A DNA stretch of 64,000 nt. Source: Sipunculus nudus. Taxonomy: Eukaryota > Annelida > Sipuncula > Golfingiida > Sipunculidae. Shown piece after piece: positions 1 through 50,200 of the stretch; positions within the stretch are counted from its first letter, which is position 1, and every line of letters begins with the position of its first letter. A program made the translations under genes and the position numbers. The stretch spans positions 30,301,339-30,365,338 of the forward strand of contig CM049316.1 in the NCBI GenBank assembly GCA_026874595.1, read 5' to 3'. The notes below the pieces were generated by a model, which saw nothing but the letters and a program-made list of their open reading frames with translations, was not told the origin of the DNA and did not search any database.

Positions 1-14
1 GGCCTAATATTCAC

Positions 15-49
<35 letters not shown>

Positions 50-21148: not shown

Positions 21149-21781
21149 TCATATTGGTGTGTCTCTTCTGTTAAGCATGACATTGTAATGTTTTGGTGTC
21201 TTAAAGTCTGATGCATTAACAAAGAAAGGCTGGTTATTTATCTGAATATTTCCCAAAACTTCACCAAATATCTGATTTTTGGTGTCCTTCGTCCTCACTC
21301 TGTCTCTTTTGAAGTAGAAAAGCTCCTTCTGAAAACGCCAGTTCATCTGTACTCCTGTGTACGTCTGTGTGTCTGTGTTAAGGTATATCCGTAATAACGT
21401 CCTTGAACACAATAATCGAACTGCTGCCGTCAGTCCTACTCCGCAGGCCATCCAGATAATCAGGTTCGGTGCGTCACTATCAAGTGACATAATTTCTTGC
21501 ATGAATGGCCCAGGCAAGTTAGCCAGTCTATAAATACTCCCCAAAACAGCCACTCCACAACCTATAGCTGTGAATAAATATGACCCGAACAGGTACTCAT
21601 TGTTATTGTTGACATATATCATTATGTTATTTTCCTGGGTGACTCCATCCTCTTTATGTTTTGGGGCCCATTTTCGTGGTCTCAACTTGTAGAATATTGT
21701 GGCCTTTTGTTGAAGCTGGGGATTTAGAGTGGTGAGAATGGCAGAGATGCTGTTAATGTTTCCAGGATTTATTGGCTTTTT
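21149..21781 (-). CDS. Exon 3 of TMEM70-family gene: both membrane helices and C-terminal domain
   Basis: An open frame follows a long pyrimidine-rich acceptor (plus strand CTG at 21782-21784, minus CAG) and runs 210 codons plus stop. It encodes KKPINPG at its start and ends NRRDTPI. The upstream MVFIFFFQ of the raw open frame is intron. A possible poly(A) signal lies 189 bp beyond the stop. Confidence 0.85.
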   Translation of the reverse strand, partial: KKPINPGNINSISAILTTLNPQLQQKATIFYKLRPRKWAPKHKEDGVTQENNIMIYVNNNNEYLFGSYLFTAIGCGVAVLGSIYRLANLPGPFMQEIMSLDSDAPNLIIWMACGVGLTAAVRLLCSRTLLRIYLNTDTQTYTGVQMNWRFQKELFYFKRDRVRTKDTKNQIFGEVLGNIQINNQPFFVNASDFKTPKHYNVMLNRRDTPI

Positions 21782-24700
21782 CTGAAAAAAAAAAATGAAA
21801 ACCATGTCATTTCACAATCTGGTGTCATTTAAGATTTTACAGCTCAAAGTCAAATCTAATTATTTTTTTTATAAAAAATGTCAATAAAATTCTCCTTATC
21901 AGTTATAAAATTTCTGATTAATGGCAATGATTGCTGACAAAAAAAACAAGGGACCTATGGGTCACTATGCTCAGCTGACGTTAACCTTGAAGGTAAAAAT
22001 CTAAAATAATATCAAATGGAGATAAAGTGTAAGAGGAAGAGGTAATAAAGGCCATGGTTGGTTTATATGATTGGTTTGTATTGATGAGCAAGAAATTGTT
22101 GCAAATAATATTTTGTGACCTGACCATGTGTTCCCTAATGTTGAAACTGAAGCATGTGAGCAGTTTGTGAACAAATGATCTGTAAAATTACCATGATCAT
22201 TAGTTGGCTTTTCGATTAACTGTTGACATTTCAGTAGTTTACACATTTGTTCAATCAAATCTTTTTTTTGTATAATATAAATTATTAAATATTTTTTTTT
22301 TATGAAATGTATACAGTTGAAATATAACTAATTAACAACATAAAACATGGCAAACAAAGCCTGATCTCAAATTCTGCTGATGCAGGAAAATAATGAACAA
22401 ATGTTTGTAACAAATCCTCATTTTTTTATCACATCAATTTTTTTTTTAATTTAAGTTTATATTTCTATACATTTCAATATAACATATATATCTGAATATA
22501 AAAGTTGATTCATAATTCTCAATTGCATCATCATAAATCTCAATCTTGTCAGATAACACCACATCATGCATACAAATGTTTATTTATTTTTTACCACAAA
22601 AATATATCTTTTAAATCTGCAAAACAATAAATGTCTAAAAAAAATACTTGATTTAGATTTCACAATTTTGAATTGTGTCTTTATTTATCCATAATGTGCT
22701 TCATATTTTATCATAATTCAAGCATACTGATGGGTTCCATTATGATTGGTAAAATCATTTAAAAGAAAAATGATTTCTTTAAAAATGTTACATTAAACAA
22801 CATTGCATCTTCTGGATTATACCTTGAATTACTTTTTTAAGGAAAGTTTTTGCATATCAGAGTGGAAACAGCATTACAATTAAGGAGATACAGTGAAAAC
22901 AATAATACTGCATAACATTTGGTGGGTTGGGTTTGCGGGGGGGGGGGGGGGGGGGGGGGATGGGGTGGTGATATCAGAATAACTGTACACCTGTCACAGC
23001 AGGGGATCTCCCCCAGTGACTGTAACAAATCAGAAACCCTGGCATAGCTGACTTCCAGTGACCTGGAGTGGGACCCTGCATCTGTAATCTGTAATCAAAG
23101 CAAATGACTACAATAGAGCCTCAAGAAAAATATCAATAACTAGCTTAATTTTCAAGCTTTTACTTCCAAATTTCAGATTTAAACAAATTAAATATTTATG
23201 TTTACATGCTGTGAAAATTAAATCAATGGTACTTACAGGAAAAAAACGTGCCATGGTCAAAGTTGGGCAAAATTTAAGGTACTGATTTTATTTTTATGCT
23301 AATTACTTAAAAAATTTACAAAATTCAGATCTAATTTTGGGTAAACAATTGAATCTTAATTAAACATAGTTATATACTTGGGAAAATAGACTCTAGTTTC
23401 AAAATTTTTCATGTTAAGTGAGTAAATATTTTTCCTGATTTTTTACAAAGTCCATTATGTTTGGGCCCATAACTTAAAGAATTTATACTTAACAGACTTA
23501 ATTTCTGGCATGTACATAGGAACTTTATAGAAGAATATTTATGGTTAATATGAGGAAAAACAGATGAGTGGTTTTGAAATTAGGCAGTCCTGAAGTGTAA
23601 AAATAGGATTTAAATAAAAAATTAAGGTTTTTCCTTAATTTCTCAAAGGAACGAAGTCGCAAAGACCCAGTTTTCGGCTTGGTAGGAGATCTTGGGGACA
23701 TCTAACATTATGCTGAATTTTGGATTCCTAGGTCTTACGGTTTCAAAACGTGCCACATCTACGGACGGACGGACGGACGGACGGACGGACGGACAGACGG
23801 ACGGACGACGGACAATGGACCACGACTATAGCTCAGATGACTTATAGTCAGCTGAGCTAAAAATGGTTATACAGGTGACTTATGCTCCATTTCTCATCAC
23901 CTAATTCATAAAATTAACCAAAATCACCTCAGACAGTCACATTACAAGACTTTGGGACTAGAAATGCAGATAATCTGAGAAACTTAGGCAACAAGACTCA
24001 AGCTTGCAGCTGTCCAGTCTGCCTCATCACTGTTCAATTTACAGAACTACACAAATGCTAAATTCTAAGGACTTTTATGGACTTCTGCCTTCTGGTTACT
24101 TTTTTATTAATTAAAGGGTGTTGTGTACTTCATTTCTGCAGTTTTAAATTATTGGACATTCATGGTTTTTACAGACATAGGCAAAGCAGAAAGATATGTT
24201 ACTGCATATTCAAATATCTAGAAATATTTAGAAATTTACCTTGAAGGCATGATACTGCTTTGTCTCTTGTACATGCTGCAGCAGCGTGAGGTTTCCTGCT
24301 GCAGGGGCTGGTGACAGGAACTGACAAGTCTTCAAGCTGAAATATTTAGAACATATGTGATAGCTCCTATATATATATAAACTGAAACTAGGAAATGTAC
24401 AAAAGCTCTGATCCTCTTTCCATATGGAATGTGTGAAAATGGTGCTTTGGAATGGAATCTTAAATTTGAACAAAGTACCTGATGTAGAATTCAGATGACA
24501 GATCAAAACAAACAAAGAATGCACCTAAACCTAACCAAAATATGTTATCTATAATATGTGATTGCAATGTAATAAGAGTTGAGTATGAGTGACACTTTTT
24601 GAGATATTGCAAAAATTAATGACATTTTTTATTTAAGATATAAAAATGTGTACATTAAAAAATAAATTCTTAAACAAGGGACCTATGGGTCACGACGCTC

Positions 24701-27700
24701 AGCTGTTATATATGATAAAAAAATATTATTTAGAAATGAGGCACATGCTGGTTTTGTGTGGTAATAAATATAAGCTGTATTATGAGTTGTTGTTGTTTAG
24801 TATGATTTTGATAGTACCTTTGGAGACAGGGAAGAGGATTGATTTCATTTATTTTATTAACAAATGGGAGTACTACTGTCACACAGATTTTGACTTGGCC
24901 ATATAACTTATAAGCAGAACATATAATATAAGAGTTTAACAATTAAATAAAAAAATTACAAATATTGTCCCAAATATAATTTTTATAAAAAATAATAAGA
25001 GAATCATATGATTTTTTAAAATGAAATATAACTGATATGATTATTAAAATAATATTAAAGAATATATTCATGAATGCATTCATGAATACATTTTGAAAGT
25101 ATTTGCACGAGTATTCATATACTTTCATTTTTACCTGAATTCCCATTCTTTATGCAAGAAATCTTATAATGGAGTACATAATCATATTCGTATTTAAATA
25201 CAATTACAAAGTATTCGCACAATGTCTGGTATTTATTCAGTTTTCACCAAACAATGATGTTGAGAATCCAGAATATACAAAATTCACACATTTAAATAAT
25301 GATCATAAGTACCTGGTTTTATGGCTTTTATTTATATTAAAAAATAACTGTAAAAAATTCATTTTGGACTAATTTCACATCAATGTACACACTAGACACA
25401 GTAGGAATCTAGATTAATATTATCAACTGCATCTTTGTCTATCATTAATTTCCTTCATATAATCCTTAATGATTAGTAATGAATGATATGATTTACTTCT
25501 TTATCATTAAAAATGAACTGAAAAATGCCATAGGTGACTGCATGGTGTTATTTGAAATATGTGACATTCTACCCATCGATACAAGATTCTTATATCATCA
25601 GTAACTGCAAGTTAATTTCCTGTTATTATAAACTAACAAATTCCTTTTCTATTTTTCTTTAATTTGTTATTAAAAACCAATAAAAATTTATTAATTTATT
25701 GTTTATTGTTATGTTGTTGGTTAAAACTACTAGATGAGTTGGGTTGAACACCTGGATCAACTGTGGCTGGCCATAAGCTGCCTGGATTCTCCCCTCAAGC
25801 GTGCATAATTTGATGAAAGGTCAACAAGGTCAACATACAGGTGACTCAAGAGGGGCTGGAGAGAGCCAAAGTCTGACAGGGTCTCATAAAAAACATTAAT
25901 AAAAGCTACAATATTTGGCAAATTTCTTTCAGCTTTCTAAACTAAAAAGCTGAAATCCTTATGTGTGCATGATATGAAAATTATATCAAAAGTGCTTACG
26001 GGAAACAAACGTGCCATGGTCACAGTTGGGCAAAATTTAAGGTACTAATTTTATATTAATACTAATAACTTATAAAATTTGAAAAATTTAGAACTAATTT
26101 TGGGTATTCAATTGAATCTTGATTAAATAATGTTACATCCCTGACAAAAAAGATCTCTAGCTTTAGCAATGCCCTTGTTAAGGGAGTAAATATATTTCTT
26201 GATTTTTTACAAAGTGCATTATGTTTGGGCCCATAACTTAAAAAAAATACACAATACTGACATCATTTCTGGCATGTGCATAGTGAATGTATAGAAAAAT
26301 ATGTATATTATATATGATCAAAGTCAGATCAGTGGTTTTGATATTAGGCAGTCTTAAAGTGTAACATTGGCTTTTTAATGGAAAAATGAAGTTTTTCATT
26401 GATATCTCGAAGGAATTAAGTCCTAGTGACCAAATTCTTGGCATGGTAGGGGATTTTGGAGAAATCTTACTGTATGCCAAATATAAGGAACTTAGAGCTG
26501 AAGCTCGGGAGCTGAGCTCTAGCAAACTGCATAACACTAGCAATATGTGACATGGTGCTTGAAAACTTGAATAAAATCTACAGTTTTTGATCAACTGGTT
26601 TCAAATTTTTGGTGTTAACAGTTAAAATGCTAACAAAAACATACTGTGAAAATTAAATCCACAGCAGTTACAGCAAAAAAACGTGCCATGGTCAAAGTTG
26701 GGCAAAATTTAAGGTACCAATTTTTTATTTTTGCTAATATTTTTAAAAATTTAAAAGATTTTGATCTAATTTTGGGTATACAATTTAATTTTGATTAATA
26801 AAAGTAATATTACTGGAAAAAAAGAGCTTAGCTTGAACAAGTTTTGTGTTAAGTAATAAAATTTCTTTCCTGATTATTTACAAAATGCATTATGTTTGGG
26901 CCCATAACTTTTTTAAATTAAATAATACAGACCTAATTTCTGGCATGTACATAGGAATTATATAGAGGATTATTTATAGGAAATATGAGGAAAAACAGAT
27001 GAGTGGTTTTGATATTAGGCAGTCCTAAAGTGTGAAAATAGGTTTTTAATAAAAAATTGAGGTTTTTCCTTAATTTCTCAAAGGAATGAAGTCACAAAGA
27101 CCCAGTTTTCGGCATGGTAGGAGATCTTGGGGACATCTAACATTATGCTGAATTTTGGATTCCTAGGTCTTACGGTTTCAAAACGTGCCACATCTACGGA
27201 CGGACGGACGGACGGACAGACGGACGGACGACGGACAATGGACCACGACTATAGCTCAGATGACTAATAGTCAGCTGAGCTAAAAATAAATATGACAGGA
27301 TCCAACAAATGATATTTTCATAGAATATAAAATAAATTCATTAAATATTTATTATTATTGACTTACAGTCTCACAATGTTTTACAAATTCTTTGAATTGA
27401 TGAAAGGCCAGCTGGTTAAATATAGTGTAATTGAAGCCAGCCTAGGAGTAGATTAGGATTCTGATCTGGGCCAGTCCAGTTTAAAATCAATCCACCATAG
27501 GATTGTTAACTTAACCAGCCCAGATCAAAATTCTAATCTGGGCCAGCCCAGTTTCAAATCAGTCCAGACCAGACTTAAATCCTGAAGGCCTCGCCACAGG
27601 ATTTTAATCTGGACCGGCCCAGATCAAAATTTTAATCTGGGCTGGCCCAGTTTAAAACTGGTCTGGCCCAGATTAGAATTTTGATCTGGTCCGGTCCGAA

Positions 27701-29281: not shown

Positions 29282-29350
<69 letters not shown>

Positions 29351-32300
29351 AGAGACAAGATTGAAATCCAGCCGGATTTCAAATTCACCTAGACGAGATT
29401 GCAATTGTGATCTCGCCCAGGCGAGATTGCGATTGTGATCTCGCCTAGACGGATTTTAAACTCGCCTAGACGAGATCACAATCGCAATCTGGCCTAGGCA
29501 ATATTAAAATCCATCATGGAGCGGGCCAGGATTTTAATCTCGCCTAGGGGAGTTTAAAATCCGTCTGGTATCATCCAGGTGAGTTTAAAATCTGCCTGAT
29601 AACACAGTGATATCACTTAGGCGAGGTTAAAATCTGCCTAGGCGAGATTAAAATAGTGATCTGATCTAATTTCCTAATATATTATGTATTGTAATTGACA
29701 TATGAAAGATGTTTTCAGTCAGATATTAAATATTTTAACACTGAATGGTTATGTATAGTTCACAAGTAATATATTTATTAACATTTACAGAATATTATAT
29801 TATTAATGTAAAAATCAACATTAATTTTGGAAATTTTTTTTATTATATATTTTTATAAATATGGTTATGTAAAGTTCACAAGTAATACATTTATCAATTT
29901 TTACAAAATATTATATTATTAATGTAATAATTAACAATTTTTTTAAATTTTATATTTTTATTTTTTTTTATAATTTAAGTAACAGGAAACTTAACTTACA
30001 TGGTTATTGTTAATGCATATTTAAATTATATATGATGTGGGCTGCTGCTGATTATTTACATGATAATTTTGTTGTCAATATTAATTAATTTGAAGTGAAA
30101 CTGGTATTAGTAATATTAGTTATGTACTATTTTAAAAAGACAAAAGGAGACTAAATATAATGTTTAATTACATTAATTAATATATATGATGTTTAATTAC
30201 CAAAAAAAGGAATAGTGTATCAAAGTCCATCATAAATACTGATCACCTACATATTTTGTACCATAAGCTTACATCTTTTTGTCTGTTGACTGTTGAATAC
30301 CTGGGTGAAAAGAAACATTTGAACTAGATCAACCAACTAATTTGTTCTGTTTGTCCTGTAAGGATTATCAAATAGGATGATTGTTTATGTTAATGTGTAA
30401 TATACTCTTTAAATAATGAAGTAATATCTATCTAGACTTATCTATCTATCTATATATCTATCTATGATTGATTCAGTATGCAAGTGGATGACTTTTCCCC
30501 CCGAGATTTGCTCTTCATAATATCTCATAAATGTGCTTCAATATACCTCTTGTTTTTCTCTTATTGACATATATTAAATACAATTACAAACTATTATTTT
30601 TGGTATAAATGATTAGTGATTTTTACAACTCCAAGGTTGTTAAGAAAACTGGGAAGAAAATAAAGATTAATTAATTTTTAGAAAATAATCGGTATGATAT
30701 GGATGCTGTTGACAGATGAAACACATCAAAGGTGCAAGTAATAATCAAATACCTATTTAATAATTCCATTTCCAAAATTAATGTTAATTATTACATTAAC
30801 ATTATAATATTCTGTAAATATTAATAAATATATAACCTGTGAACTATATATAACCCTTTAGTGTTAAAATATTGAAAATATGACTGAAAAAATCTTTCAT
30901 ATGTCAATTACAATGCATAATATATTAGGAAATTAAATCAGATCACTATTTTAATCTTGCCTAGGCAGATTTTAAACTTGCCTAATTGATATCAAGTGGA
31001 TTTTAAACTCGCCTGGATGATACCAGGCGAATTTTAAACTCGCCTGGGCGAGATTAAAATCCTGGCCTGCTCCATAATGGATTTTAATCTCGCCTAGGCT
31101 AGATTGCAATTGTGATCTCGTCTAGGCGAGTTTAAAATCTGTCTAGGCGAGATCATAATCGCAATCTCCCATAGGCGAGATCACAATTGCAATCTGGTCC
31201 AGGCGAATTTAAAATCCGCCTGGATTTCAATCTCGTCTCTGACATATATATATATAGACCTATACAGAAAAGTGTCACATATTTTTGAACATCTAAATTG
31301 ATTTTCTCATTAATTTTGTTACTGATTATAATAAATAATAAATTTATCTCTGATAGACTGTATATTTGGAAATTATTTGGCCTTGCTTGGTACCAGCTAT
31401 AGCCATGAGTTCACAGGTGACATATATTTATACCACTGACTGGACCCAGATTCCAATTTCAACATGCCTTTAAAAATAATTTTACAACCTGTTGCTTCAA
31501 CAGAACAGATTCCATTGCAACTCCTGCATTTCAAGTTAAATTAAAGTTTCAATCACTAGTTTAGTTTGATTTATATTTGATTTTCAAATCTGCCAATATG
31601 ATTTAGAACAGTCTGCCCTAAGCTTTGAAACTTCTGTTTATATGCAAAACATTTAACTAAAAATAATGATAAAAGTTATTGTTTCATGATTTGTTTTTCT
31701 AAATATATCGTGGAACTTTTTTTCGGTGGAGGGGTTGGGTAATGATTGATACCAAGTCCTGGACAATGTTACTTATTTGTGTACATATCGCTTATACAGT
31801 TGACTTACATTCATGGTAGTCATTATAAGGATATGTGTTTGTGGGGGGGGGGGGGGGGGGAGTTTGGGGGTTGCTAGGGGGGATGATCAATGTAATCATC
31901 CCTCCCCCCTTTCAGAGAATAACTGTAATATATTGCAAATAATATATTAAGAATTAGAATTTACCATGAAATATTATATCTTAACCTGGTTTAAAAGTCT
32001 AAATGTTTTGTCCTCGATTGTAAATTAAAATAAGTGGCCAAGCTTCGATTGAAAGCCCCTTTGATCAAAATATAATTTCCCCCTAGGAATTATACATATT
32101 ATATAAAAAGAATTCTGATTTAAATGGAAATATCACTGGAGCTAAAAAAATTATAAATATCTGTTGAAATCAAATAAATTTGACTGAAATAAAATAATCC
32201 CTTTTATTATTTTTTTTCCTGTTGTACATAATTTTAGAACAGCGGACAAGGATCGAAAAAACATTTCATTGTTCTACAGAATTATATATCAAATAGGTAA

Positions 32301-35300
32301 TGTACAAATGAACCAGTCTGTTTATAAATGTTCCAGTTCTTTTGTGTTGAAGGTGAAAAGAGGCCATTCTTGTCCGATGCGAATGACAAATTACAGAATA
32401 AGTTCTATTTTTTTCGTTCGGATAGCATCTTTCGGATTAGGTGTGTATGCACCAACATAAAATAAGGATATTATTTTTTCGTTCGTACAGCAAATTTTCA
32501 TTCGGACATAAAATTCGTTAGGACGCATCAGGTGTGAAACAGCCTTAAGCCTGCAGTGCCCTTACCCTGGGTGGGGGCTGACTGTGAAAAATCTCACCGG
32601 CTCGGCTGAGATTCAAACTCACAATCTCTTGGCTTTGAGTCCTCTGGTCTACCCCTGAGCAACATAAGCTGATCCGGACATTAATTCTTCTTGTGGATCT
32701 TATCTAAAGAATGCACCTTTGAAGCTAGCTGTATTCTTAGCTTGGGACATGTACATTACTAGCATAGCAGATGCACTGTCAGTCAGTATTTGGGGTGACA
32801 TTTAACAGTAAACAGTTTTCTTTGTGGTAAAATCACGCAAAAAATTACTGATTTTGTTGAACTGTTGGACATGGGCAAAGGAAGAACCCTGGATTTTATC
32901 CTACTGCACAGGACGGAATCCAGAAACTTTTTATTCACCTTGGAGGAGATCTGGACTCTGCTGACTGTCCTCTAGTTTCTGCCATTTTTGAATGGACACT
33001 GCTGCAATTAAGTGGCAGTATCAACTGGATAAGGTTGAAAGAAACCATATATTTTATAATAATATTTTTTAAGTTTTTGTTACTTGGCAGAAGCCTAGGG
33101 TCAATCTAAAAGTAACACTTAATCTGTCAGGTTCTCTTGAGATTTTTTTTATTTACTTTTATGAACCTTTTTTACATGGATAACAAACTTATAAGAACAC
33201 TCTCCATGGCTCAGATAGTTGCATTCTGTAGTCTGCAGGGGTTCAGGAAACTGGAAGACCCAGAGAAAACCACAGACCTTGGTGAACCAGTACAACCCAC
33301 TGTCATATAGCCACACCCACCTGGGATCAAACCCGGGTCACCAGTGGAGCGTCGCTGAATTCAAGATTTTTCATAGAAGTCAAATGTCTAAAACACCAAT
33401 CAACAATCAAACTATGCTGTGAAAAAGGTTAACACCCTATACCTTTTAGTAAATTAAGCATCCCATGTGTCTCATGCTTCTACTGTTTCCAGAGTATGGC
33501 ACCCCTGCCACATGTTATGCACATAACCTGCTTTTCATTAAAATAATTGCCATGTTAGTATTTCTGATGGTTCTTCTAAATAATAAGATGGTAATGTAAT
33601 GTTTTATATCAAAACTATAACGAGCTTTTTACTTTCTCTTGTAAGATCTGAATGAATTTCAGATTTTAAAATGTTTATCAGTAAATGAAACAATATTAGT
33701 TTTGATACAAGCCATGCATAGTCAGAAAAGATTATCCTACAAAAGTTTTAACCCGAGGAACAGTTTCATGTCAAAACCACAAACTTTTAGACCCATAACA
33801 TTTCCTGAATCTACACTAACATTATTATAATGGCTTCTGGTTTTCAAGATTCATGTGCTGCTTCAAAGGGGTATGAAAAATATAGCAATAAAGTCATCAC
33901 CAGCTAGTTAGACATAAGAGCAGGATTCACACAATTCAAGAGGTTAAAATTTTCAAAATTTCTTCATGACCAAAAACAACAAGGGACCTATGGGTCACGA
34001 CGCTCAGCTGTTATATATGATAAAAAAATATTATTTAGAAATGAGGCACATGCTGGTTTTGTGTGGTAATAAATATAAGCTGTATTATGAGTTGTTGTTG
34101 TTTAGCTTATGTATGATTTTGATAGTACCGTTGGAGAGAGGGAAGAGGATTGATTTCATTTATTTTATTAACAAACGGAGTACTATTGTCACACAGATTT
34201 TGACTTGGCCATATAACTTATAAGCAGAATATATAATATAAGGGTTTAACTATTAATTAAAAAAAAATAACAAATATTGTCCCAAATATAATTTTTATTA
34301 AAAATAATAAGAGAATCATGTGATTTTTTAAAATGAAATATAACTGAAATGATTATTAAAATAATATTAAAGAATATATTCATGAATGCATTCATGAATA
34401 CATTTTGAAAGTATTTGCACTGGTACTCATATACTTTCATTTTTACCTGAATTCCCATTCTTTATGCAAGAAATTTTATAATGGAGTACATAATCATATT
34501 CGTATTTAAATACAATTACAAAGTATTCGCGCCATGTCTGGTGTTTATTCAGTTTTCACTAAACAATGATGTTGAGAATCCAGAATATACAAAATTCACA
34601 CATTTAAATAATGATCATAAGTACCTGGTTTTATGGCTTTTATTTATATTAAAAAATAACTGTAATAAATTCATTTTGGACTAATTTCACATCAATGTAC
34701 ACACTAGACACAGTAGGAATCTAGATTAATATTATCAACTGCATCTTTGTCTATCATTAATTTCCTTCATATGATCCCTAATGATTAGTAATGAATGATA
34801 TGATTTACTTCTTTATCATTAAAATTGAACTGAAAAATACCATAGGTGACTGCATGGTGTTATTTGGAATACCTGACATTCTATCCATTGATACAAGATT
34901 CTTATATCATCAGTAACTGCAAGTTAATTTCCTGTTATTATAAACTAACAAATTCCTTTTCTATTTTTCTTTAATTTTTTATTAAAATCCAATAAAAATT
35001 TATTAATTTATTGTTTATTGTTATGTAGTTGGTTAAAACTACTAGATGAGACGGGTTGGACACCTGGATCAACTGTGGCTGGCCATAAGCTGCCTGGATT
35101 CCTGTATGCCTCGCCTCAAGCATGCATAATTTGCTGAAAGTTCAACAAGGTCAATATACAGGTGACTCAAGAGGGGCTGGAGAGAGCCAAAGTCTGACAG
35201 GGTCTCATAAAAACATTAATAAAAGCTACAATTTTTGGCCAATTTCTTTCAGCTTTCTAAATTTAAAAGCTGAAATCCTTATGTTTGCATGATATGAAAA

Positions 35301-38300
35301 TTATATCAACAGTGCTCACAGGAAACAAACGTGCCATGGTCAAAGTTGGGCAAAATTTAAGTTACTAATTTTACATTAATACTAATAACTTATAAAATTT
35401 GAAAAATTCATAACTAATTTTGGGTATTCAATTGAATCTTGATTAAATAATGTTACATCCCTGACAAAAAATCTCTAGCTTCAGCAATCCCCTTTGTAAG
35501 GGAGTAAATATATTTCTTGATTTTTTACAAAGTGCATTATGTTTGGGCCCATAACTTAAAACAATTACGCAATACTGACATCATTCTGGCATGTGCATAG
35601 AGAATGAAAAATATGTATATTATTTATGACTAAAGTCAGATCAGTGGTTTTTTTTTAGGCAGTCTTGAAGTGTAACAATGGGTTTTTAATGAAAAATGAA
35701 GTTTTTCATTAATATCTTGAAGGTATTAAGTCCTAGTGACCAAATTCTTGGCATGGTAGGGGATTTTGGAGACATCTAACTGTATGCCGAATTTAAAGAA
35801 CTAAGAGCTGAAGCTGGGGAGCTGAGCTCTTGCAAACTGCATAACACTAGCTTGATGTAAACAATGTTACATGGTGCTTGAAAACTTGAATAAAATCTAC
35901 AGTATTTGATCAACTGGTTTCAAATTTTTTGTGTTAACAGTTGAAAAGCTAACAAAAACATGCTGTGAAAATTAAATCCACAGTACTTACAGGAAAAAAA
36001 CGTGCCATGGTCAAATTTGGCCAAAATTTAAGGTACCAATTTTTTATTTTTATTAATATTTTAAAAAATTTAAAAGATTTTTATCTAATTTTGGGTATAC
36101 AATTTAATTTTGATTAATTAAAGTAATATTACTGGAAAAAAGGTCCATAGCTTTAACATGTTTTGTGTTAAGTGATCAAATATTTTTCCTGATTTTTTAC
36201 AAAATGCATTATGTTTGGGTCCATAACTTTTTTAAATTATATAATACAGACATTATTTCTTGAATGTACATAGGAACTATATAGAGGAATATTTATGGTA
36301 AATATGAGGAAAAACAGATGAGTGGTTTTGATATTAGGCAGTCCTGAAGTGTGAAAATAGGTTTTTAATAAAAAATTAAGGTTTTTCCTTAATTTCTCAA
36401 AGGAACGAAGTCGTAAAGACCCAGTTTTCGGCTTGGTAGGAGATCTTGGGGACATCTAACATTATGCTGAATTTTGGATTCCTAGGTCTTACAGTTTCAA
36501 AACGTGCCACATCTACGGACGGACGGACGGACGGACAGACGGACGGACGACGGACAATGGACCACGACTATAGCTCAGATGACTTATAGTCAGCTGAGCT
36601 AAAAAATAAAAATTAATAAAAAGTCCACAAATGAAATAACCTTAGTGCGATAAAAACATAATCAAGTCAGGAGATCTGAAGGATATGTGAATTAGAAGTT
36701 AAAATGAGTAATATATTTTAGATACGATGTCCCAAATACGAGATGCTAAATTTAAGATTTGAAAACTTATAACTAATAAGATTTTTTTTAATAAATAAAA
36801 AGTGTAACTTTAACATAACATAATGAGATCATGAGACTCATAAGACACATTTGCCATATAGGTAGATGTGGATATACGTCACAGTTTTTTAGATAAATGC
36901 TGAATATAATTGAATTTTTTTTAAAACATAATTTCTTTAGGAGACCAGTAAGATTCACCTTTCATTTTCATTAAAACTGATTCCATAAGAGTAATTGTTT
37001 AAAAGATATTGTGTCACATATGAATTGTCAATAGATACCCATATGGCCCTAATACTTATTATGCATGGAGTGGATATATAAAAATATATGAGTCAACATC
37101 TGTGTAGTAGCACCTGTTTTTTTCCCTATTTTGTTTTAGATAAAACATAAAAGATCTACATTAGTTATGATATATATATATATATATATATATAACTCTG
37201 AAGAAAAACAACACTGTTAATTCACAACAGTCTGTTTCACGGGATGCGACCCGATCATCAGGTGAATGTGGTTAGAATGAAGCTAACGGCGTGGTTTGAA
37301 AAGCTGAGACTTTACGAGATTACTAGATTATGCTTTGTGCGATTCGGGGCGGGGGGGGGGGGGGGGGGGGGCATGTGAAAGACTGACACTGGTCCTATTG
37401 TCCTAGGGTGCACAATAGGATTGGTCGGGGTACATGTGCGATACTGGAACATAACAGGGCAGGGCAAGGAGGTTATTTATTGTTTTACATTTTATATATA
37501 ATACAAAGATATATACCAGGATGCTCAATTAGCATATTGAACTGATTTCTAATAGGGTCTTGGAAGCAGTGAACATATCAGTAGTATACATATGATAAAA
37601 ATACACATATACTATGAAAATACACAATATACAAGGCAAATATACAATATAAAAGGCAAATATACTATACTTTACTCATACCAAATGCAATCCACTCGGT
37701 AAACTCACCATGATGTAGTGGTAACGCCATGTCCCTCATCACTGCAAAGCAGTGAGAGAACAACTACCTGAATAGGTAAGTCTGCCCAGCGGATCCTCGT
37801 TGGGGGGGGGGGGGGTTTAAGGGGGAACGCTGAATATTAGTACGAATGCTAGGTTTTAAAATATTTCAGGGTGAATTTCTTTTGATGGCGGCACTTGGAG
37901 AGAATTTCAGCTCTTGAGTTCAACAATGGGGGGGCCGTTGCTATAAGTAGCTTTTCAGACAAGCAGAGATCACACTTCCTAGTCCCACAGAAGCAAGGTG
38001 CTGCCTTGGCAGATATTTCCCAGGAGAGCTTGTAATTGATATTGTTGTCTTTTAGTGACCAAATGTGTTTAGACACTTCAGTATTTTTAGCGTGGGATCT
38101 GTTCCGAAAGGATTGCTTGTGGTTATTGTATCTTCTCTTGAAATCACCTTCAGTAGACCCTATGTAGTGTTTCACGTCATTGTCTGTTCTGTTGCCTTAT
38201 AGACAATGCATTTCAGCTGACATTGACCATTCATAGGACATTCGTCTTTTTTGCGGCAGTTACATTGTTTTTGAGGTACATTCACAGCATTGTCGGTATT

Positions 38301-39812
38301 TAAAACCTTCATATTATGTTTGCTGATCAGGTTAGACATGTTGGGTAGACAGCTATAGCTAATTTTCAAATTGTTCCTGTTGAATAACCTGTGGTACCTG
38401 TGATGTGTTTTTCAACTAGTTTCATGAATTGTCTGCCAATGTTGGTTTTTACATGACGGCTGTAGGGTGGATTAAACCATATTATTTTCCTTTTCCTGTT
38501 TCTTTTGCTTTTAACTGTGGGTTCAACATATTTTAAGCTTTCTGAGAACCCGTTTTTCGCTAAAGCTTTGTCATACATGGGTTTGGCTTTCATAAATAGC
38601 TCTTTATTGCAGGAGTTGTCAGATACACATTTGCTGATCATCATAGGTATCTGCCTAATGATAGCTGGGGGGTGATTGGATTGTGCGTGGATATAGAGCG
38701 GGTCATTGTTCAGTTTTCTGTAAGGGTAGAAGATGTCATTTTGGAGGTCAAATGTTACGTCTAAGAAATCTGTGCAGGTCAGATTAGTTTCAATGGTTAT
38801 CTTTAACCCAACATTGGAAAAGAGTTTGATCATTTTCTTACGGGTGCTGTCTGCTTTGGGTCCAGACATGTTGGGGAAACAACCTAAACTGTCATCACAA
38901 TACAGGCCTAGAGCATTTTCACCAAATTCCTTTTTCAACATATCCAGGATGTATAAACCAACAATTTCGCATACTTCAGCGCCATCAAAACTGCCCATGG
39001 TGACGTCAAAACTAGTATGATCTTTTTTCACCCAGGTGTTACCGTTGCTAAACAGTAAGCTTTTCCTGCTGTGCAGGATGGTTTTGTCTTTTGATAACAT
39101 CCTCTGGAATGAAGACCATGGTTTTGGCAAATTTTAGGGCTTTCATGAGAAGATCTTCTGTGATCGAGGGGTAAAAGTCAACAATATCAAACTTTATGAA
39201 CTTATATATATCAGGGGCGGATCCAGGATTTAGGAAAAGGGGGGGGTCCAACCCAGGAGGACTAATGAAAATCCTAAAAAAAGGTCATCACGTCTAGAAA
39301 AGGGGGGGTCCAGGCCGCAAAATTACGTCTAAAACCCCTTAAAAAAGGTTGCTTGGGATGAAAAAGGGGGGGTCCGGACCCCCTGGACCCCCCCCCGGAT
39401 CCGCTTCTGTATATATATATATATAAATTATTATTATTATTTTATTTCATTTATGTTTGGTGCCTGAACTGAATTATTTTCAATAAAATGTTACTTTCTG
39501 CTCCTAATGAATTAAAATTTCATGGGTCCTGATTTAATATAACACAGCCACAGCCCCTAACCAGACTTGCAACTACTGTATACTGAAATAAAAAAAATAA
39601 CCTGTTTGATAACACCACCCGGCATGATATTGTTCATCTATTATCGCTCACCTGGTTTTTAAATACAACTTTTTGCAAGAGACCAGGATTCTCGCAACAA
39701 ATCAGTGTGGTGTTTTATGCAACATACACCTAAGGTCCAAGCAAAATACTTCAAAATACCTCAACAGGACATACCTGGTCAAGAAACAGCGTCTGCTGAC
39801 AGACGACAGCAT
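21149..39812 (-). CDS. TMEM70/TMEM186/TMEM223-family mitochondrial membrane protein, 3 exons
   Basis: Three exons join in frame: 39812-39775 (38 nt, ATG), 24336-24240 (97 nt) and 21781-21149 (633 nt with stop), giving 255 residues. Residues 1-45 are basic, Ser/Leu-rich and start MLSSVSRRCFLT, a typical mitochondrial presequence. Two hydrophobic helices lie at about 108-131 and 152-171, followed by a hydrophilic C-terminal domain with YLNTDTQTY and INNQPFFVNASDF. That layout and the spacing match the TMEM70/TMEM186/TMEM223 superfamily, whose members help assemble respiratory complexes (ATP synthase, complex I, cytochrome oxidase) in the inner membrane. By eye I cannot decide which paralogue it is; TMEM70 and TMEM223 both fit parts of it. 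Introns are 2.5 kb and 15.4 kb. The start faces that of ELMO. Exon 3 is the surest; exons 1-2 rest on splice sites, phase and presequence character. Confidence 0.72.
21947..23859 (+). mobile_element. Hairpin-ended repeat family, copy 2
   Basis: Begins CAAGGGACCTATGGGTCACT, contains a 23-G run (22937-22959), one internal unit, a GGAC microsatellite (23761-23808) and the terminal hairpin at 23829-23859. It lies in intron 2 of the TMEM70-family gene. The interior before 22920 does not match other copies, so this may be two partial copies. Confidence 0.65.
22937..22959. repeat. Poly-G run (23 G) and six others
   Basis: Further G runs lie at 6436-6453, 14787-14800, 31843-31860, 37351-37371, 37802-37815 and 61888-61900; a C run is at 17064-17074. 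All are non-coding; lengths may be affected by sequencing error. Confidence 0.95.
24240..24336 (-). CDS. Exon 2 of TMEM70-family gene
   Basis: A 97-nt exon between a minus-strand acceptor ATATTTCAG and donor GTAAAT. It encodes LKTCQFLSPAPAAGN and onwards to YHAFK, with no acidic residue until its last third, as expected for the end of a presequence. It is in phase with both neighbours. Confidence 0.65.
24675..27282 (+). mobile_element. Hairpin-ended repeat family, copy 3 (2.6 kb)
   Basis: Full copy from CAAGGGACCTATGGGTCACG to the hairpin at 27252-27282. It contains two tandem versions of an approximately 0.67-kb internal unit (from about 25955 and 26630), each with CGTGCCATGGTCA and TATGTTTGGGCCCATAACTT, then a GGAC tract. 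It is nearly identical to copy 4. Confidence 0.85.
27440..27768. repeat. Array of self-complementary subrepeats
   Basis: A 0.33-kb block alternates units such as GATCTGGGCTGGCCCAGTTT and TTTAATCTGGGC in both orientations. The make-up resembles the outer arms of the foldback element at 29348-31243, but the base sequence differs. It ends beside an ATATATAT stretch at 27769. It may be a compact or partial foldback element; both outer ends are uncertain. Confidence 0.6.
27894..28077. mobile_element. Possible relative of the CAG..GGATCC MITE
   Basis: Starts CAGTGGCAGATCCAGA and ends CCTATATCTGCTCCTG, which is an imperfect inverted match. Its interior has GGACCCCCTCCC like the MITE at 39212. Target duplication is not visible. 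Confidence 0.45.
29030..29137 (-). mobile_element. SINE fragment, 3' part (split copy)
   Basis: Matches 45843-45950 of the other SINE copy (CACCAAGGAACC, CATGGCTG, CCATTAA). It is cut by the Harbinger-like insertion at 29138 and continues at 32546. Confidence 0.75.
29285..29347. repeat. TA dinucleotide microsatellite
   Basis: About 31 uninterrupted TA units directly left of the foldback element; a shorter TA run follows it at 31244-31256. Open frames across it (YIYIYI) are spurious. Confidence 0.95.
29348..31243. mobile_element. Foldback-type element with about 480-bp terminal inverted repeats
   Basis: The element starts GTCAGAGACAAGATTGAAAT and ends with its complement finishing GTCTCTGAC. 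The arms are 29348-29836 and 30768-31243 and match along their whole length. The outer 300 bp of each arm are made of short alternating direct and inverted units based on GGCGAGATTAAAATC. It sits in a TATATA tract, fitting a TA target. The inner part repeats ATGGTTATGTA..AGTTCACAAGTAATA at about 29744 and 29861. It has no coding frame. Confidence 0.85.
32546..32670 (-). mobile_element. SINE fragment, 5' tRNA-like part (split copy)
   Basis: Continues the SINE after the 3.4-kb insertion. The B box complement GAGATTCAAAC is at 32608-32618 and the A-box region at 32651-32664. GACTGTGAAAAATCT is shared with the second copy. Confidence 0.75.
33225..33355 (-). repeat. Possible second SINE-like fragment
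   Basis: The minus strand contains GGGTTTGATCCC, a good RNA polymerase III B box, followed by a body with GGTCTGTGGTTTTCTCTGGG. Only one copy is in the window, so the call rests on the B-box-like motif alone. Confidence 0.3.
33980..36601 (+). mobile_element. Hairpin-ended repeat family, copy 4 (2.6 kb)
   Basis: Same ends, the same two internal units and the same GGAC tract as copy 3, in the same orientation 9.3 kb away. The terminal hairpin is 36571-36601: TAGCTCAG and GACT pair with AGTC and CTGAGCTA around a TAT loop. Confidence 0.85.
37194..39211 (-). pseudogene. Penelope-like retroelement, 5'-truncated and frameshifted
   Basis: Minus-strand frames at 39206-39048, 39130-38366, 38369-38172 and 38175-37849 together encode a Penelope-type protein. 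Motifs are RT motif A (FIKFDIVDFYPSIT), the fingers-palm segment TMGSFDGAEVCEIVGLY, catalytic GLYCDDSLG, then a CNCRKKDECPMNGQC cysteine cluster, and a GIY-YIG endonuclease (HYIGSTEGDFKRRYNNHKQS ... CDLCLSEK). Three frame changes break it. The N-terminal part is missing; the element stops where a MITE begins. A 3' tail of 0.65 kb carries a hammerhead-like motif and ends at a TA tract (37170-37193). Penelope elements are known for GIY-YIG endonucleases and terminal-repeat hammerheads. Confidence 0.9.
37220..37267 (-). ncRNA. Type-I hammerhead ribozyme motif in the Penelope tail
   Basis: Read on the minus strand: stem I 5' arm ATTCAC, core CTGATGA, stem II CGGG-loop-CCCG bounded by a T on each side, core GAAA, stem III ACA/TGT with a GAC triloop, cleavage triplet GTT, then stem I 3' arm GTGAAT, an exact complement of ATTCAC. 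All conserved core bases are present. Predicted cleavage is between 37226 and 37225. The U-U opposition at 10.1/11.1, where G-C is usual, and the GUU triplet may slow it. Self-cleavage would process element transcripts. The structure was read by eye only. Confidence 0.75.
39212..39409. mobile_element. MITE with CAGGGGCGGATCC ends
   Basis: Ends CAGGGGCGGATCC and, in complement, CAGAAGCGGATCC, with G-rich and C-rich inner arms, flanked by TA on both sides. It truncates the Penelope-like element on its 5' side. A related element may lie at 27894-28077. Confidence 0.7.
39637..39651. repeat. 15-bp inverted repeat, left arm
   Basis: TCTATTATCGCTCAC here is matched exactly in reverse complement at 40058-40072. 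The arms are 406 bp apart and flank exon 1 of the TMEM70-family gene and the promoter. This could be a shared factor-binding site or a relic of an inserted element; I see no target duplication. Confidence 0.8.
39775..39812 (-). CDS. Exon 1 of TMEM70-family gene: presequence start
   Basis: The ATG at 39812-39810 is followed by 12 codons (MLSSVSRRCFLT) and AG before donor GTATGT. The two spare bases complete a Ser codon with the first base of exon 2. The Arg-rich, acid-free content suits a mitochondrial import signal. Confidence 0.62.
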
Positions 39813-40207
39813 GTTGACCGCTGTGTGACACCAACAGGTGCTGCCATCTATGGGTCGCCACTGAGACTGAAACCACTGCCGCCGATGTACTTCCGTGACA
39901 AACGAAAGGAAAATAAAAATCCTAAACTGAGGGACACCCAAGAGGAAGAGTTGGCTGAAACCACATAAATCGATCAGAGTTCATTGGGCTAAGTGGTCCG
40001 GTAACCAGTGATCGTCAAGATGAGGAAGCATGGCTGAATTATTTAGATAAAATCAAAGTGAGCGATAATAGAGGTACTTCCCTGTTGGCTATTTTGACAG
40101 CTCAGAGGGTTGACCCTTGGTGTGTGTATTGTGGAGTTGTCGTCTACGGTGTTTTCAATGCGTCTTTGTCATCGATTCTAGTCATACAACAAAAGTAACC
40201 TCACAAC
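39813..40207. promoter_or_regulatory. Shared (bidirectional) promoter region of the TMEM70-family gene and ELMO
   Basis: 395 bp separate the two divergent start codons, so both promoters and 5' UTRs must lie here unless untranslated exons exist elsewhere. The minus-strand UTR side holds an ETS-type site (plus ACTTCCG at 39889-39895) and a GATGGC core near 39843-39848. Both are common in promoters of mitochondrial and housekeeping genes. No TATA box is obvious. Motif roles are inferred. Confidence 0.5.
40058..40072. repeat. 15-bp inverted repeat, right arm
   Basis: GTGAGCGATAATAGA is the exact reverse complement of 39637-39651. It lies 136 bp before the ELMO start codon. Confidence 0.8.
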
Positions 40208-43200
40208 ATGTCGACAGAGTCCATTAAAAAAGTAGCTGTTATATTATTTGATGAGACCACTGACACACCTCAGTTTCTTCATCTGGACCAAGTAAGTATT
40301 AATATTAGTCAACAATTTAATTTAAATTCAATTATACTCCACTCCACTACCTCTGTCCACCTGGGGTTTTTGCAGGATGATATCTGTTACATGCAACAAA
40401 GCTTACCTGTATGTATGTAAGTTTTTTATGCAAATCAACCAAATATGTAACTGCATTAAATGCGGCGATATCCAGGATCCTGGGTACCGCCGCATAAAAA
40501 TTTTTAGAGTAAACTGGCGAATTTAAAACCCTTGTCGGGAAAAATTCGGGTAAATTTAAATATTGCTTTTATGACATGGAAACTTTCAGTAATCTAAGGC
40601 AGATACAGTACTTTATTCGAATGACCAAGAAATTCAGCTAAATATTATGTTTTGTATGTAAACAAGACTCACTTTTAAAACTTTGCAACCCTGGCGTAAC
40701 AATGAACTGCATGACCTTAGCTCACAGAGCCAACAGGGCCCATTACCACTGGTTACACAGGCGGTTGGCGGCCGGCCGTGGCTGGGGGAAACCCAGAGCA
40801 GACATCTTTCCCCGTGTATCATCATTTATAAGTACAATATATATTCTTCTAATCAACATTTAAAGTGGACAAACACTGTCTAAGTGGTATGTTATATGCG
40901 TATTTGATAAGAATATCTTTATTTCATAACAAATACAACATTATCAGACCAATTATAAGAATTTATTTGTCATGGGGAATGTCTTCAGTTTCCAGTTAAG
41001 AGAGCATGGGAGCTAGGGCTACCAAATGTGTTGATTAATAACAAGCTAATAATATCATTTTATTCATAAAATCCTTCTGTGTTTGAATTCCAGATAATTG
41101 ATTCATTTCAACATTTGACTAAACAGATATCTGTCATCGCAACATATATATATATATATGTTGGCCAATGCTGACAATCTTAAATTACATATATGACAGT
41201 ACTTAGAGATGACATCACAATGGTGTTTGAACTTGTCACTTTTTTTAAATTATCATTTACCACCACATTACCTCTTGTGATAACAGCTGCATTGTACTTC
41301 CTTAAGAAATAAATTTGAAGGAAGCATAAGAAATGAATTAGGTGGACAGGAGTGTTGGAACAGAGTATAATAATTAATTAACACTTTTGCATTTTAAATC
41401 TTGTTGTTAGGTTTTAATACCTCAGAATGGCACATACCACCAAATTAATTCAAATTTTCAAAGACATGAAGATCTTGATATTGCTAAATGAATTATTTTG
41501 AACTTATGGACTTTTTTTATATTGTACTTTTATATAATAACAGGTCACATCCTGCTCCCAGTGTGTTCCTGCTTCATAAATTGTGACATAATTATGTCCA
41601 TTCCATAGACATTTCAATGGGGTGAATGCAGCGGAGGCTGTAGTGTCACCGTTATGGTCTCTTACAAACCTTGTCTCATCCCAAGATGCTTTATTCTGAT
41701 TCACTCAGCTGCTGTTCATCTTGAGTTTGGCCAGAACTATAAAGACCATGTAAGGTTCCAAAGGAGACACTTTGGAATCATCAAACTTTTTTATTCAAAG
41801 TGCTATTCTTGGTGCTGTCTAGTAAAAATAGTATGGTCATTTTGTGAAACTTTGTGAAAGCACTAATGCAAGGCACAACTTCCATACACACTGCCAATTT
41901 TTCTTGTACCTTCAACCATGTTGTTTACCCATAAACGAATTAGCAGTGATGCTTGGGAATGGCCAACAACGTTTTGTTAAAGGACAGCTTAAGTGTAATT
42001 AATTACTATATTTTCACCCCACCATGGGATACAAGGGTTTTGTTTGCACTTTTTATAGTCAATATTTTTATAAAAATAATCAATGTTTTTTTGTTTTTTT
42101 TTCATTTCAGTGCAGACCCTTGGCAGCTATCATCAAAGACCTGTGCAATGCGTAAGTATCATCAGATCAGATCTCTTCAAATTACCTGATCAATATCTGA
42201 GTATTCTTCATTTCATAAATTGTTAAAAATTCTGAAGTTTTGGTTCATGTCAGAGGGGTGATGACAACAATTAATGGTTTTATATTAGGGATAAGCCATG
42301 GTCTTTCAGTTCATGATCATTTCATCATCTTATTTAATGTATTTGCTCTGAGCATATGTGAGAGAGTTAACATTTTGAAGTGCATACAAATTACAATATT
42401 ACACACATTAATGTGGGGAAGACTTATCTTTTACTATCAAGAACTACTAATTGATAATACTATCAAGAAATGATTGCAAACATTGTATAATCTGAAAACA
42501 AATATTTTGGTATGTTATTGAAATACATACAAATGAGTAAATAATTGATCTGTGTATATATATATATCATAAAGGTTATACATTGTATGTAGGTGTTGCT
42601 TTCAACCATATCACAAGATCATCATCTGCAGCCTGGAATGCCTGTGACATGTGACAACAAGTGGTTGTTAATCTGTGGAAGTCCCAGGCCCAGGATGCGT
42701 TTAGTGCGAGTTGGTTGGGTTGGATGTTGAGTGTCCCCTTTACCTTTCTTGTAACATCATTTGAATCCGGATCCAGTATCTTAAAAGAGGCCCACAGCAT
42801 CCTGTGTCTGGCATCTCTCTGGTGTTCATAAATGGCAGACATGGCTTGATTTTATGATCCTGGATTTGTTTTCCCACCCGACAAGCAGTCTCCCTAATGT
42901 AGTGCTTTCCACTGTCACCACACTGGATGTCATAGACAGCACCTGTCTTCTTGTTGAGTTCCGTCTTGTCCTTGTTTCCTACCAGAATCAGTCTCAATGT
43001 GTTTGCCTGTTTGTCGAACACCTGGGTATGAGATTCCAATTAGGTAATGAGGGCACCATCAGGAAAGAGGATACCAACCAAGAGAGAAAGTACTACCACC
43101 AGGAAAAAAACAGACATTTAATGAAAGGCTTGCAACACCTCAGAGAAACTCCAGAGAATATTCTGGAAATACAACATCCAAGTGTTCCACAAACTGACCA

Positions 43201-44295
43201 ACACATTGAGATCAATCCTGGTAAGACCCCAAGACAAGACTGAACTCAAAAAAGAAAATTTTAAACGTATTATCAACATACCTTAATTATAGGCAGTGAT
43301 GTGAAAACCCAAGCTTGGTATTATCGCCCCTTGTTAAATTATGATATTTTTTCCTTAATTTGACCCCAGCTATTGGTTCTTTCTAGATTTTTGCTGCGAT
43401 ATTTATTTAGTTTTGTTATTTTTCAGATGGGGTCTTTCTAATCCTGATGACTATGCTTTGCAGTTCAGTGACCAAAACAGACAAGCTTTTATAACAGAAA
43501 GGGTATGTGATGAAACTTTTTTTTAAATTTTTGTTTTAAAAAAGTAGGTCCATGACCTGTTGGTGGTACTGTATATTGAATGAGGATGAAGGATGCATAT
43601 GATAACAGGGCTCAACATAAACTTTGAAAGTACTTGCCCCTTCGGGCAAGTTACATCTAGCTTACTTGCCCTACATGAATTTTACTTTCCCTACAAATAT
43701 TTTTGATTGTATTCAAGAAGACAAAGCTCCTTTTTCAGGCCTTGGGTAAAGATTCATGTTGGACATTGAAGTAGGGCAAGAAGGAGGTGAAATCTAGTTG
43801 CCCATCCACTATTTTCTGGAACTTTCACTTGCCCCAGGCAAATGGTTAAACATAAATGTCGAGCCTTGGATAAAAAATGTTCTGAATTTCAGGTTTAATA
43901 TGGACAGATGTGTAATTAAGCCATTAGAGCTCATCTCTGAGGTTCTATCGATATTTTACTATTGTGCTTTTGTGACACCAGCAAGATTCAAACCAGGGAC
44001 TTTAACCCTCAGCTGATGAAAAGGGTTTTGTACTGAACTTTACTCTTGGTAACAGTATTGTCAATCTAACCTGTCTTCATTTTTCTTTGCTCAGTCACCA
44101 AGCATTGTTCATGACTTTTGAAAAAAATTAATTTATGAGTAACTGAATAGGTGAATTGACTGAAAATTGGAACTTGGAAGATCAGGAGATAAGACAATGA
44201 AAATATAAAACATGACCTCATTGTCTGTACATTTTCTGTTACAGAACCGACATGAAATCAGAAATGGAGATGTGTTGCGGCACACTTATTCACCA
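40208..44295 (+). CDS. ELMO: ELMO exons 1-4: Ras-binding domain
   Basis: Exons 40208-40291, 42111-42151, 43427-43502 and 44245-44295 encode [16 protein letters not shown], then [29 protein letters not shown] and [17 protein letters not shown]. This ubiquitin-like fold binds active RhoG/Arl GTPases in known ELMOs. The ATG context is ACAACATGT; an in-frame upstream start is not evident. Confidence 0.92.
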
Positions 44296-47200: not shown

Positions 47201-50200
47201 ATTATCACAATAATATTGACACCATGGTGTATGATGTTCAAGTATTGTTTATTTTTATCAGTTTTTTTTTTTAACTCAGTATAAATATTAATCATTACAG
47301 TTTCTCACCTGAATTTAATTATCAGCAAAATTCACGCATACTTAATGAGGTCAGAGGTCACAAGACCTGCACATTTGCCGTGCTCTTGTCCATCTTAATT
47401 TCGTGACAGTATTTAGAGAAGTGCAAAGTATGGAAATGGGCTATTTATTCAATTGTTTATCTTCATTTTCATGTTGCAGTACTGGTAAACACCCAGTTAT
47501 TGAACAAGAAGTCACCCCAGTCATACTTGTACAGCACATTGAAAGGTAATTGCTCACCAGTACCCTCATAACTGTTAATAGTCAATACCAGGATACACTT
47601 GTAAATACTCATTTATATGTTGTTTTCTATGGTTTAACCTGATAGTTTTATGATGAGTGACCCTCAGACAAGCACTAAGCAGGTCCCTTAATTGATTTAA
47701 AGTTTATAAACTATTCATGTAGAATTTTAAAAGATAAATGAAAGAAATCATTTGTTTTTAATAACATATGGTATCAATGGTATTAATGAGAAATGGTAAA
47801 ATATAACACTATGATTTGACCAGATTCATGAACCATCAAATCAGCAATTAAGCAGAATTTGTTAATTATCTCTTTGATACTTTGTTTTCAGTGGATATAT
47901 CATACTCTATGATCCTGAGTTGTCATATGTGTTCAGCATATATCTAAATAAAGATATTTTTTATTATATCTTTATTAAATCATCTCAGTTCAGATTTTGA
48001 CATGATGTCCTGCAGATTAATGTTCATTGCTTTGACTATGGAATAAGGTGATTTTCTGAACATAATGTATTTATGAATGTTTTGATTTAAAGCCAAAATG
48101 CTGAGATTCAGAAGAATGCAATAGCATTAATTAATGCTCTGTTTATGAAAGCTGAACCAGAAAAGAGAAAGGTATGTGTAACAAATTAGTGAGTGCAAAC
48201 AGAATCAGATATGTATTTTGTATTGCATGGTTTTTCTCCAGTAAGAAATCAGTGTGCTGAAATGATCAAGCAAATAATGGTGTCTGTGAAAACTTTACTG
48301 TTAGCACAATAGGAAACAATTTCTACACAAAAACCTTGATTTTTTTGCATTTTCAAAATTATATGTCTGTGCCGTGTATTGCACATTGTACACATATACA
48401 GGGTAAACAGTAGATTATTTTTTTCCCCTTAATACTATAGATGTAAATTCACTATACTTTTAATCACATTTGTCTGTAAATAATTATATATTTGATCCAC
48501 CTTCAAGTTTATGGATTTATTCATTCAGAAAGTTATGTAATACCAACATTTAGTATTTGCATCAGCCATAAAGTTCCCATGTTTGGTATCCCTTTGATAA
48601 AGGTTAAAATACAGTCTGAAAATAAATATTGCATGTGGATTTTTTTTTTAATTTTCATGATATTAGATCTGTTTGTGTATAATTTTCAAGGAAAAGTTGT
48701 GTGTTTTGTTTCAGGACATTGCTGAAAACTTGCAGTCCAAACACATCAGGAACATCATATTAGAGGTACAGTGTTCGTCCTTGTTTTCTATATCTTCCTT
48801 GAATTTTCTTTTTATAAATCACTCATATGGCATACTCTTCATTTAATCTGATCCGGTGGGAATCTGATGTGGTTAATCTACTGGGAGTCTGCTGTGGATA
48901 ATCTACAGGGAATCTACTGTGGGTAATCTACTGGGAATGAGGGAAATATCACATTTTGTTATAAAGTTGAGGTTTGTCTATCTGAACTGTTTTTCCAAAA
49001 ATCATTCATCCAAACTGAGAACTGAAAAATTTGATTGTTCATCTTAAAACCAAAATATGAAAAAAATTTGGCCCAAAAAAATTAATTATATGTTTCTCAG
49101 GCATAGCAAGCAGGTGGCTTTTTATTTATTTTTTTTTAACCTTGGAAATAGCATAAAATATTGTTATCTCTCATGATCATGAACTGGTACAGAAATGACA
49201 AGCAAAGGTAAAAATATTACATAATAAATGATGCATACATCACATTTGTCAAAAGTTTGAAAGGATCCTTAAAATATGCAACATTTTCATTTCTTTTACA
49301 TGTAAAATTTTCACATGCAAACCAGATTATATAGGACTTCCGGTGTCAATATTTGGCGGTGAATCTTGGAACATGGGGGGGCCCTGCTGACAGTCATGAC
49401 TTTGAGGATTCCCCATTGAAATGCATGATGGTCACGTGTACTTAAAACAAGATCTGAGATTGTTTAATAAAGAATAACATTAGAAATTTCTTTAAATCTG
49501 ATGCATTTTTGTTGATTTTTCATATTTTAATTTTAATTGCAAAATAAGTACACTGAAAGTTTGTTTAAAACAAGATCCCTGCTGATGGGCGGCCATGTTT
49601 ATTCAAGCCAAACTGTCCCACAGCATGAAAATAGTGAAAGCAAGCAAATATATTCTCTTCATTGGACAAAATTTTACATTTGAATACCATCAAACAAAAA
49701 ATAGACCCATTCTTTGTGTTTACTTAAAGATAAGTTTAGATTTTTATGGAAACCGAGCTTATTAACTTATCGTTAGCTGTGAACACTAGCACTGCATTGC
49801 AGCCACTAAAAAAATAGTTCTGAAAGACTGAAATAGGAGATATAATAATCAAAACAAACGATGTTAAGGTAAAACTGGTCAAAAGTTTAGAGAAATTTTC
49901 TGTATGTTGAAGTATATTGATGGGTAAAATGGACCAAGTATCATTAGGAGTGAAGAGAACCACGTGACCAACATGGCGGTATGAGACGTGGAGAGAAAGG
50001 TCTCTGGATATAAGCGAATTGTAACCACGTGAAAAAAGGGCTAGAAATGCCACCAAAAGGTAAAAGAGGGAGGGGAGGAGAAAAAGCTAGTGAGAGTGAG
50101 TCTTCAGAGACAATAGAAGCGTATTTGACGCGAGAAACTGAAAGTTTGTCTGATGATCAGGGACAAATGGCGGAGGCGAGCCCAACAGAGCTCGGCACGC

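Follow-up and report, generated by a model that had tools for sequence, protein, structure and literature searches.

The subject of this analysis is a stretch of 64,000 nt (64 kb) from Sipunculus nudus (contig CM049316.1, positions 30,301,339 to 30,365,338), referred to as the window, on whose minus strand a hammerhead ribozyme motif lies 3' of the remains of a Penelope-like element (PLE). The proteins used to delimit the element come from a related contig, JAAEPJ010000379.1, which we call L002. The features concerned are listed here from the 5' to the 3' side of the element, with their basis in brackets, and PLE pseudo-long terminal repeats are abbreviated as pseudo-LTRs.

37852 to 39206, minus strand: PLE coding remnant (reverse transcriptase, RT, and GIY-YIG-like endonuclease), 5'-truncated and shifting between frames (tblastn with L002 proteins, three-frame translation)
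37268 to 37848, minus strand: 581 nt lying between the remnant and the motif, presumably the 3' pseudo-LTR and perhaps composite (sequence)
37220 to 37267, minus strand: hammerhead motif in type I layout (sequence reading; single descriptor match in the window; no Rfam hammerhead match)
37255 to 37261, minus strand: core string CTGATGA (exact)
37235 to 37238, minus strand: core string GAAA, its final A being A15.1 (exact)
37227 to 37235, minus strand: stem III strand ACAG-A-CTGT, complementary to itself (two copies brought together form 4 pairs to either side of the A-A in the middle)
37195 to 37225, minus strand: candidate PLE tail, 31 nt from the predicted cut to (TA)n (sequence; tail idea from PMC3846280 and PMC11167929)

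The motif and its place in the element

On the minus strand, positions 37267-37220 read ATTCAC-CTGATGA-T-CGGG-TCGCAT-CCCG-T-GAAA-CAGACTGTT/GTGAAT, with the slash at the predicted cut. The layout described in the first-pass annotation is borne out by these letters: both core strings are there, stem I (ATTCAC/GTGAAT) forms six of six pairs, stem II (CGGG/CCCG) forms four pairs that enclose TCGCAT, and within a single strand stem III can form ACA/TGT, which amounts to three pairs, counting A15.1-U16.1, around a 3-nt loop. GAAA is followed by CAGACTG, by TT and by the 3' strand of stem I, the cut being predicted between 37226 and 37225. CUGANGA and GAAA, the A15.1-U16.1 pair and an H at position 17 are thus all present. 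Two oddities had been pointed out by the first reading, and they fared differently: the GUU cleavage triplet conforms to the NUH rule and is less odd than supposed, and the U-U that stem II has beside the core (bases 10.1/11.1) stays odd.

The coding remnant was delimited through tblastn with L002 proteins, which gave the collinear pieces 39206-39102, 39112-38603, 38402-38193 and 38184-37867 at 51-67% identity per piece; with a second L002 query, a piece at 39079-38405 took the place of 39112-38603. The RT and GIY-YIG labels, for the remnant as for L002, come from motifs recognized by eye. Both tblastn and three-frame translation find the host element broken in frame, which argues against activity of this motif copy, and a self-BLAST of the window found no second copy of the remnant, of its 3' region or of the pseudo-LTR. 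The 581 nt that separate the remnant from the motif include a C tract and a 20-bp tandem repeat at 37598-37669, and could not be meaningfully aligned with the 3' region of L002.

On the other side of the motif, 31 nt past the predicted cut, an AT array, (TA)n, occupies 37170-37194. PLEs are reported to prefer AT-rich targets (PMC11167929), and an array of this kind at the 3' end fits that preference. A 31-bp tail is described as optional in one rotifer PLE (PMC3846280), and Penelope has a tail of 30-40 bp (PMC11167929); the likeness of our 31-nt stretch to these tails is loose, as the published ones were measured from the end of the pseudo-LTR and not from the cut. At the opposite end of the element, a short insertion at about 39409-39212 adjoins the 5' truncation (39206); it is flanked on both sides by TATATATA, and its ends read CAG..GCGGATCC and GGATCCGCCCCTG. 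From this terminal sequence, we take the insertion to be a hAT-like miniature inverted-repeat transposable element.

A related element and published hammerheads

L002 is titled as a bacterial metagenome-assembled genome and was the sole genome contig matched by a degenerate pattern of conserved RT residues; it was therefore located through its RT motif and not through a ribozyme search. Positions 1-3787 hold two PLE-like copies arranged head to head, one of them 5'-truncated, and the contig is probably eukaryotic contamination of the bacterial assembly. Head-to-head PLE copies have been described (PMC3846280). Three tblastn pieces relate its RT to that of the window, at 54% (the longest), 57% and 44% identity. 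In the plus-strand copy, the stop at 3637 is followed by 124 nt and then by CTGACGA-GTGC-GTAA-GCAC-GAAA, that is, by a hammerhead core with CTGACGA at 3762-3768 and GAAA at 3781-3784, close to the contig end at 3787. These letters match the 5' half of a canonical hammerhead core, with a G-C pair at the base of stem II. The other copy stops short of the equivalent place and so says nothing on the core, which is seen in one copy of the two. That the Rfam match on L002 is to type III is read as a consequence of where the contig stops, since only 3 nt are found where a stem I hairpin would be.

Further relatives were sought widely. Within the genome of L002, three matches were obtained, all on the L002 contig itself, and a search of 193 genomes returned one match, the genome of L002. 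Neither the 98 pattern stretches from the PLE protein search of genome contigs nor the 11 from that of viral contigs gave a confirmed case; the PLE alignment search of viral contigs yielded 35 stretches, none confirmed, and a second motif gave no match there. A viral contig found with the first motif (L001) was set aside, its best RT match covering 12 residues at E 0.037 and its open reading frames (ORFs) giving it a phage-like look. Phages and plasmids gave no tblastn match, and a hammerhead pattern scan of the viral contigs gave none either.

As a kind, minimal PLE hammerheads are already described in the literature: minimal type I hammerheads occur in PLE pseudo-LTRs (PMC6155905, PMC7761336, PMC11167929). 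Those of Cervera and De la Pena (2014) and of Lunse, Weinberg and Breaker (2017), which we know through the papers that cite them, resemble the motif in type I layout and core, in a very weak helix III, in a palindromic stem III strand and in their place within the 3' part of a PLE. The motif differs from them by its U-U at the base of stem II, by standing single and not as a tandem pair, and by the broken state of its element. A weak stem III is in itself normal in PLE hammerheads (PMC6155905, PMC7761336). The Anolis Poseidon element PAc likewise has its hammerhead near the pseudo-LTR/ORF junction and close to the ends of genomic insertions, and the cleavage of that hammerhead was assayed and is poor for the RNA alone (PMC11167929); the motif here is known from its letters. 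According to the same source, protein had to be added before the Anolis PLE hammerhead would cut, and insertion in vitro did not depend on cutting. In contrast to PAc, the only ATG in the core of the motif opens 13 codons before a stop. Hammerheads of animal retrozymes, including those of amphibians, are also of type I, and in those of amphibians helix III is short and cleavage is better in the dimer (PMC7229834), but retrozyme hammerheads sit in short tandem repeats, and Tandem Repeats Finder (TRF) showed none around the motif.

Weighing the hammerhead assignment

We consider it likely that the motif is the known minimal type I hammerhead of PLEs in a copy that has diverged, and that it lies in the 3' end of a PLE that is dead and 5'-truncated. 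The hammerhead origin and the placement in a PLE, both proposed by the first-pass annotation, are supported by the L002 core that follows an ORF and by the published pseudo-LTR hammerheads; a working ribozyme was not established. The motif is filed as a diverged copy because three things were looked at, the pair at the base of stem II, the score in Rfam and an arrangement in tandem, and none was found as in a working hammerhead. Activity of this copy is probably absent or very low. The first reading had also left a choice between a lineage variant and a decayed copy, and the broken frames of the host element make decay the likelier source of the U-U.

Several observations weigh against the assignment. 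A paired 10.1/11.1 beside the core is a consensus preference in hammerheads, and the motif has U-U in its place. The first-pass annotation had proposed a covariance-model search and held that a missing hit would speak against the motif: Rfam gave no family at gathering score in the whole window, and its hammerhead models (e.g., RF00008, with which the motif shares the core strings) gave no match at an E-value of at most 10 in 1501 or in 91 bases around the motif, in a search run without a complete PLE hammerhead as a positive control. The L002 core, whose 3' half is missing, has a weak hammerhead match in Rfam (RF00008, 18.0 bits, E 0.078); this counts in favour of the assignment, but it is far below the gathering score of 48.5 bits. 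Searches of Pfam, NCBIfam and PDB sequences gave no support for the PLE assignment, and neither did an AlphaFold model, which was poor (mean predicted local distance difference test score 32.5). The folding calculations point the same way, as the monomeric hammerhead fold has -6.9 kcal/mol against -11.3 kcal/mol for the best fold and an ensemble probability of 0.00024, and in a 114-nt context the enforced hammerhead reaches -15.2 against -23.0 kcal/mol, a cost of 7.8 kcal/mol. Finally, our descriptor found no second hammerhead motif on either strand of the window, so that there is no tandem partner. The Rfam search of the 1501 bases also returned three weak matches, which are unrelated.

For dimeric hammerheads, the stem III loop has to be palindromic and, in eukaryotes, the motifs have to stand in tandem (PMC6466107); the palindrome is present at the motif, and the tandem partner is absent from the window. 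The stem III strand ACAGACUGU pairs with itself except at its centre, and the computed hammerhead dimer, at -24.9 kcal/mol, is more stable than two best monomers at -22.6 kcal/mol; palindrome and dimer energy both speak for the assignment. The best cofold of two copies, at -29.5 kcal/mol, is a structure other than the hammerhead dimer and adds to the points against the assignment.

It could be asked whether strings and stems met by chance, without any ribozyme ancestry. The descriptor (exact core, stem I of at least 4, stem II of at least 3 and stem III of at least 2 pairs beyond A15.1-U16.1, on both strands; a strict class with stem I of at least 6 and stem II of at least 4) was composed after the motif had been seen, so that all chance figures are post hoc. 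It has one match in the window, the motif itself. In 100 first-order simulated windows, the mean was 0.1 loose and 0.01 strict matches, and 1500 such windows held 95 loose and 5 strict matches, none of the strict ones with a compact stem III, which speaks against chance, as does the location of the single match within the 3' part of PLE remains, where L002 and the literature would lead one to expect it. The lack of an Rfam match favours chance, and so does the folding energy, which is unremarkable against 200 shuffles: z was -0.59, -1.00 and -1.19 for 48, 66 and 114 nt, with 50, 36 and 22 of the 200 shuffles folding as well or better. This analysis also predicted a hairpin that straddles the cut site. 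A Watson-Crick palindrome of the stem III kind, moreover, is shared by 7 of the 230 GAAA-N7-TH sites in the window, the motif among them (176 of 6734 among all A-N7-T stretches). On balance, we regard a chance origin as highly improbable. A true hammerhead that belonged to another element beside the remnant, an animal retrozyme or the solo pseudo-LTR of a different PLE, is in our view very unlikely. The distance of 581 nt from the coding remnant, compared with 124 nt in L002, would suit such an origin, as would the tandem repeat and C tract of the perhaps composite intervening stretch, and most animal type I hammerheads are found in retrozymes (PMC7229834). Against it, TRF found no short tandem repeats of the retrozyme type in 36500-43500, and a very short stem III suits a PLE hammerhead.

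The hammerhead might also be active still, in a PLE lineage that can do without a pair at the base of stem II and keeps the U-U as a feature of the family. The core, stems I and II and the palindrome are intact, natural active hammerheads that depart from the consensus core are known (PMC3088659, PMC10085705), and the dependence of a PLE hammerhead on added protein (PMC11167929) makes a poor fold of the lone RNA compatible with activity. Yet a frame-broken element offers little reason for selection on this copy, the L002 core has G-C at the place of the U-U, and the competing folds are more stable, so that we hold continued activity to be unlikely. We give a slim chance to a PLE lineage whose hammerhead works despite the U-U, but only as a dimer (or with protein), locked by the A-A-centred stem III palindrome.

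Neighbouring features and meaning for PLE hammerheads

An open stretch at 43039-42743 (minus strand) looks by eye like another GIY-YIG-like relic, oriented as the PLE remnant is, and Pfam found no GIY-YIG match in it. Blocks at about 23100-27290 and 33980-36600 recur at a spacing of about 9.3 kb, some of them 89-100% identical (96% for 24949-25248 against 34261-34560), with further block copies near 12-15.6 kb; the 9.3-kb-spaced blocks look like a tandem segmental duplication. A large inverted repeat spans 29327-31264, its arms (278 and 227 nt) being 90-91% identical, and a short repeat, of a kind that may suggest a bivalve host, occurs in the window, for example at 36515-36606. The plus strand carries a long interspersed nuclear element (LINE)-like element at 50029-56008, whose ORF 52340-54799 has Pfam matches to Exo_endo_phos and RVT_1 and is flanked by long ORFs, and a 218-aa ORF on the minus strand (21149-21805) matches the TMEM70/TMEM186/TMEM223 family, which marks the window as eukaryotic.

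For the favoured reading of a diverged PLE hammerhead, we infer descent from an active ribozyme, as well as cleavage by way of a dimer, the cut itself and what it does for the element. In a working parent element, two motifs, carried in tandem by the same transcript or singly by separate RNAs, would join by their self-complementary stem III strands, and the parent RNA would be cut between the bases that match 37226 and 37225. Such a cut, possibly aided by the element's protein, would trim the RNA close to where pseudo-LTR and ORF meet. The role of minimal hammerheads in PLEs is unsettled (PMC7761336).

In summary, the motif is mostly ordinary, its kind and place being as expected and its U-U mildly unusual, and one further diverged copy adds little to the knowledge of PLE hammerheads. 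It is a case missed by the Rfam models, in which the dimer palindrome has been kept and the base of stem II has not. If the U-U form were active, it would widen the known tolerance beside the hammerhead core.
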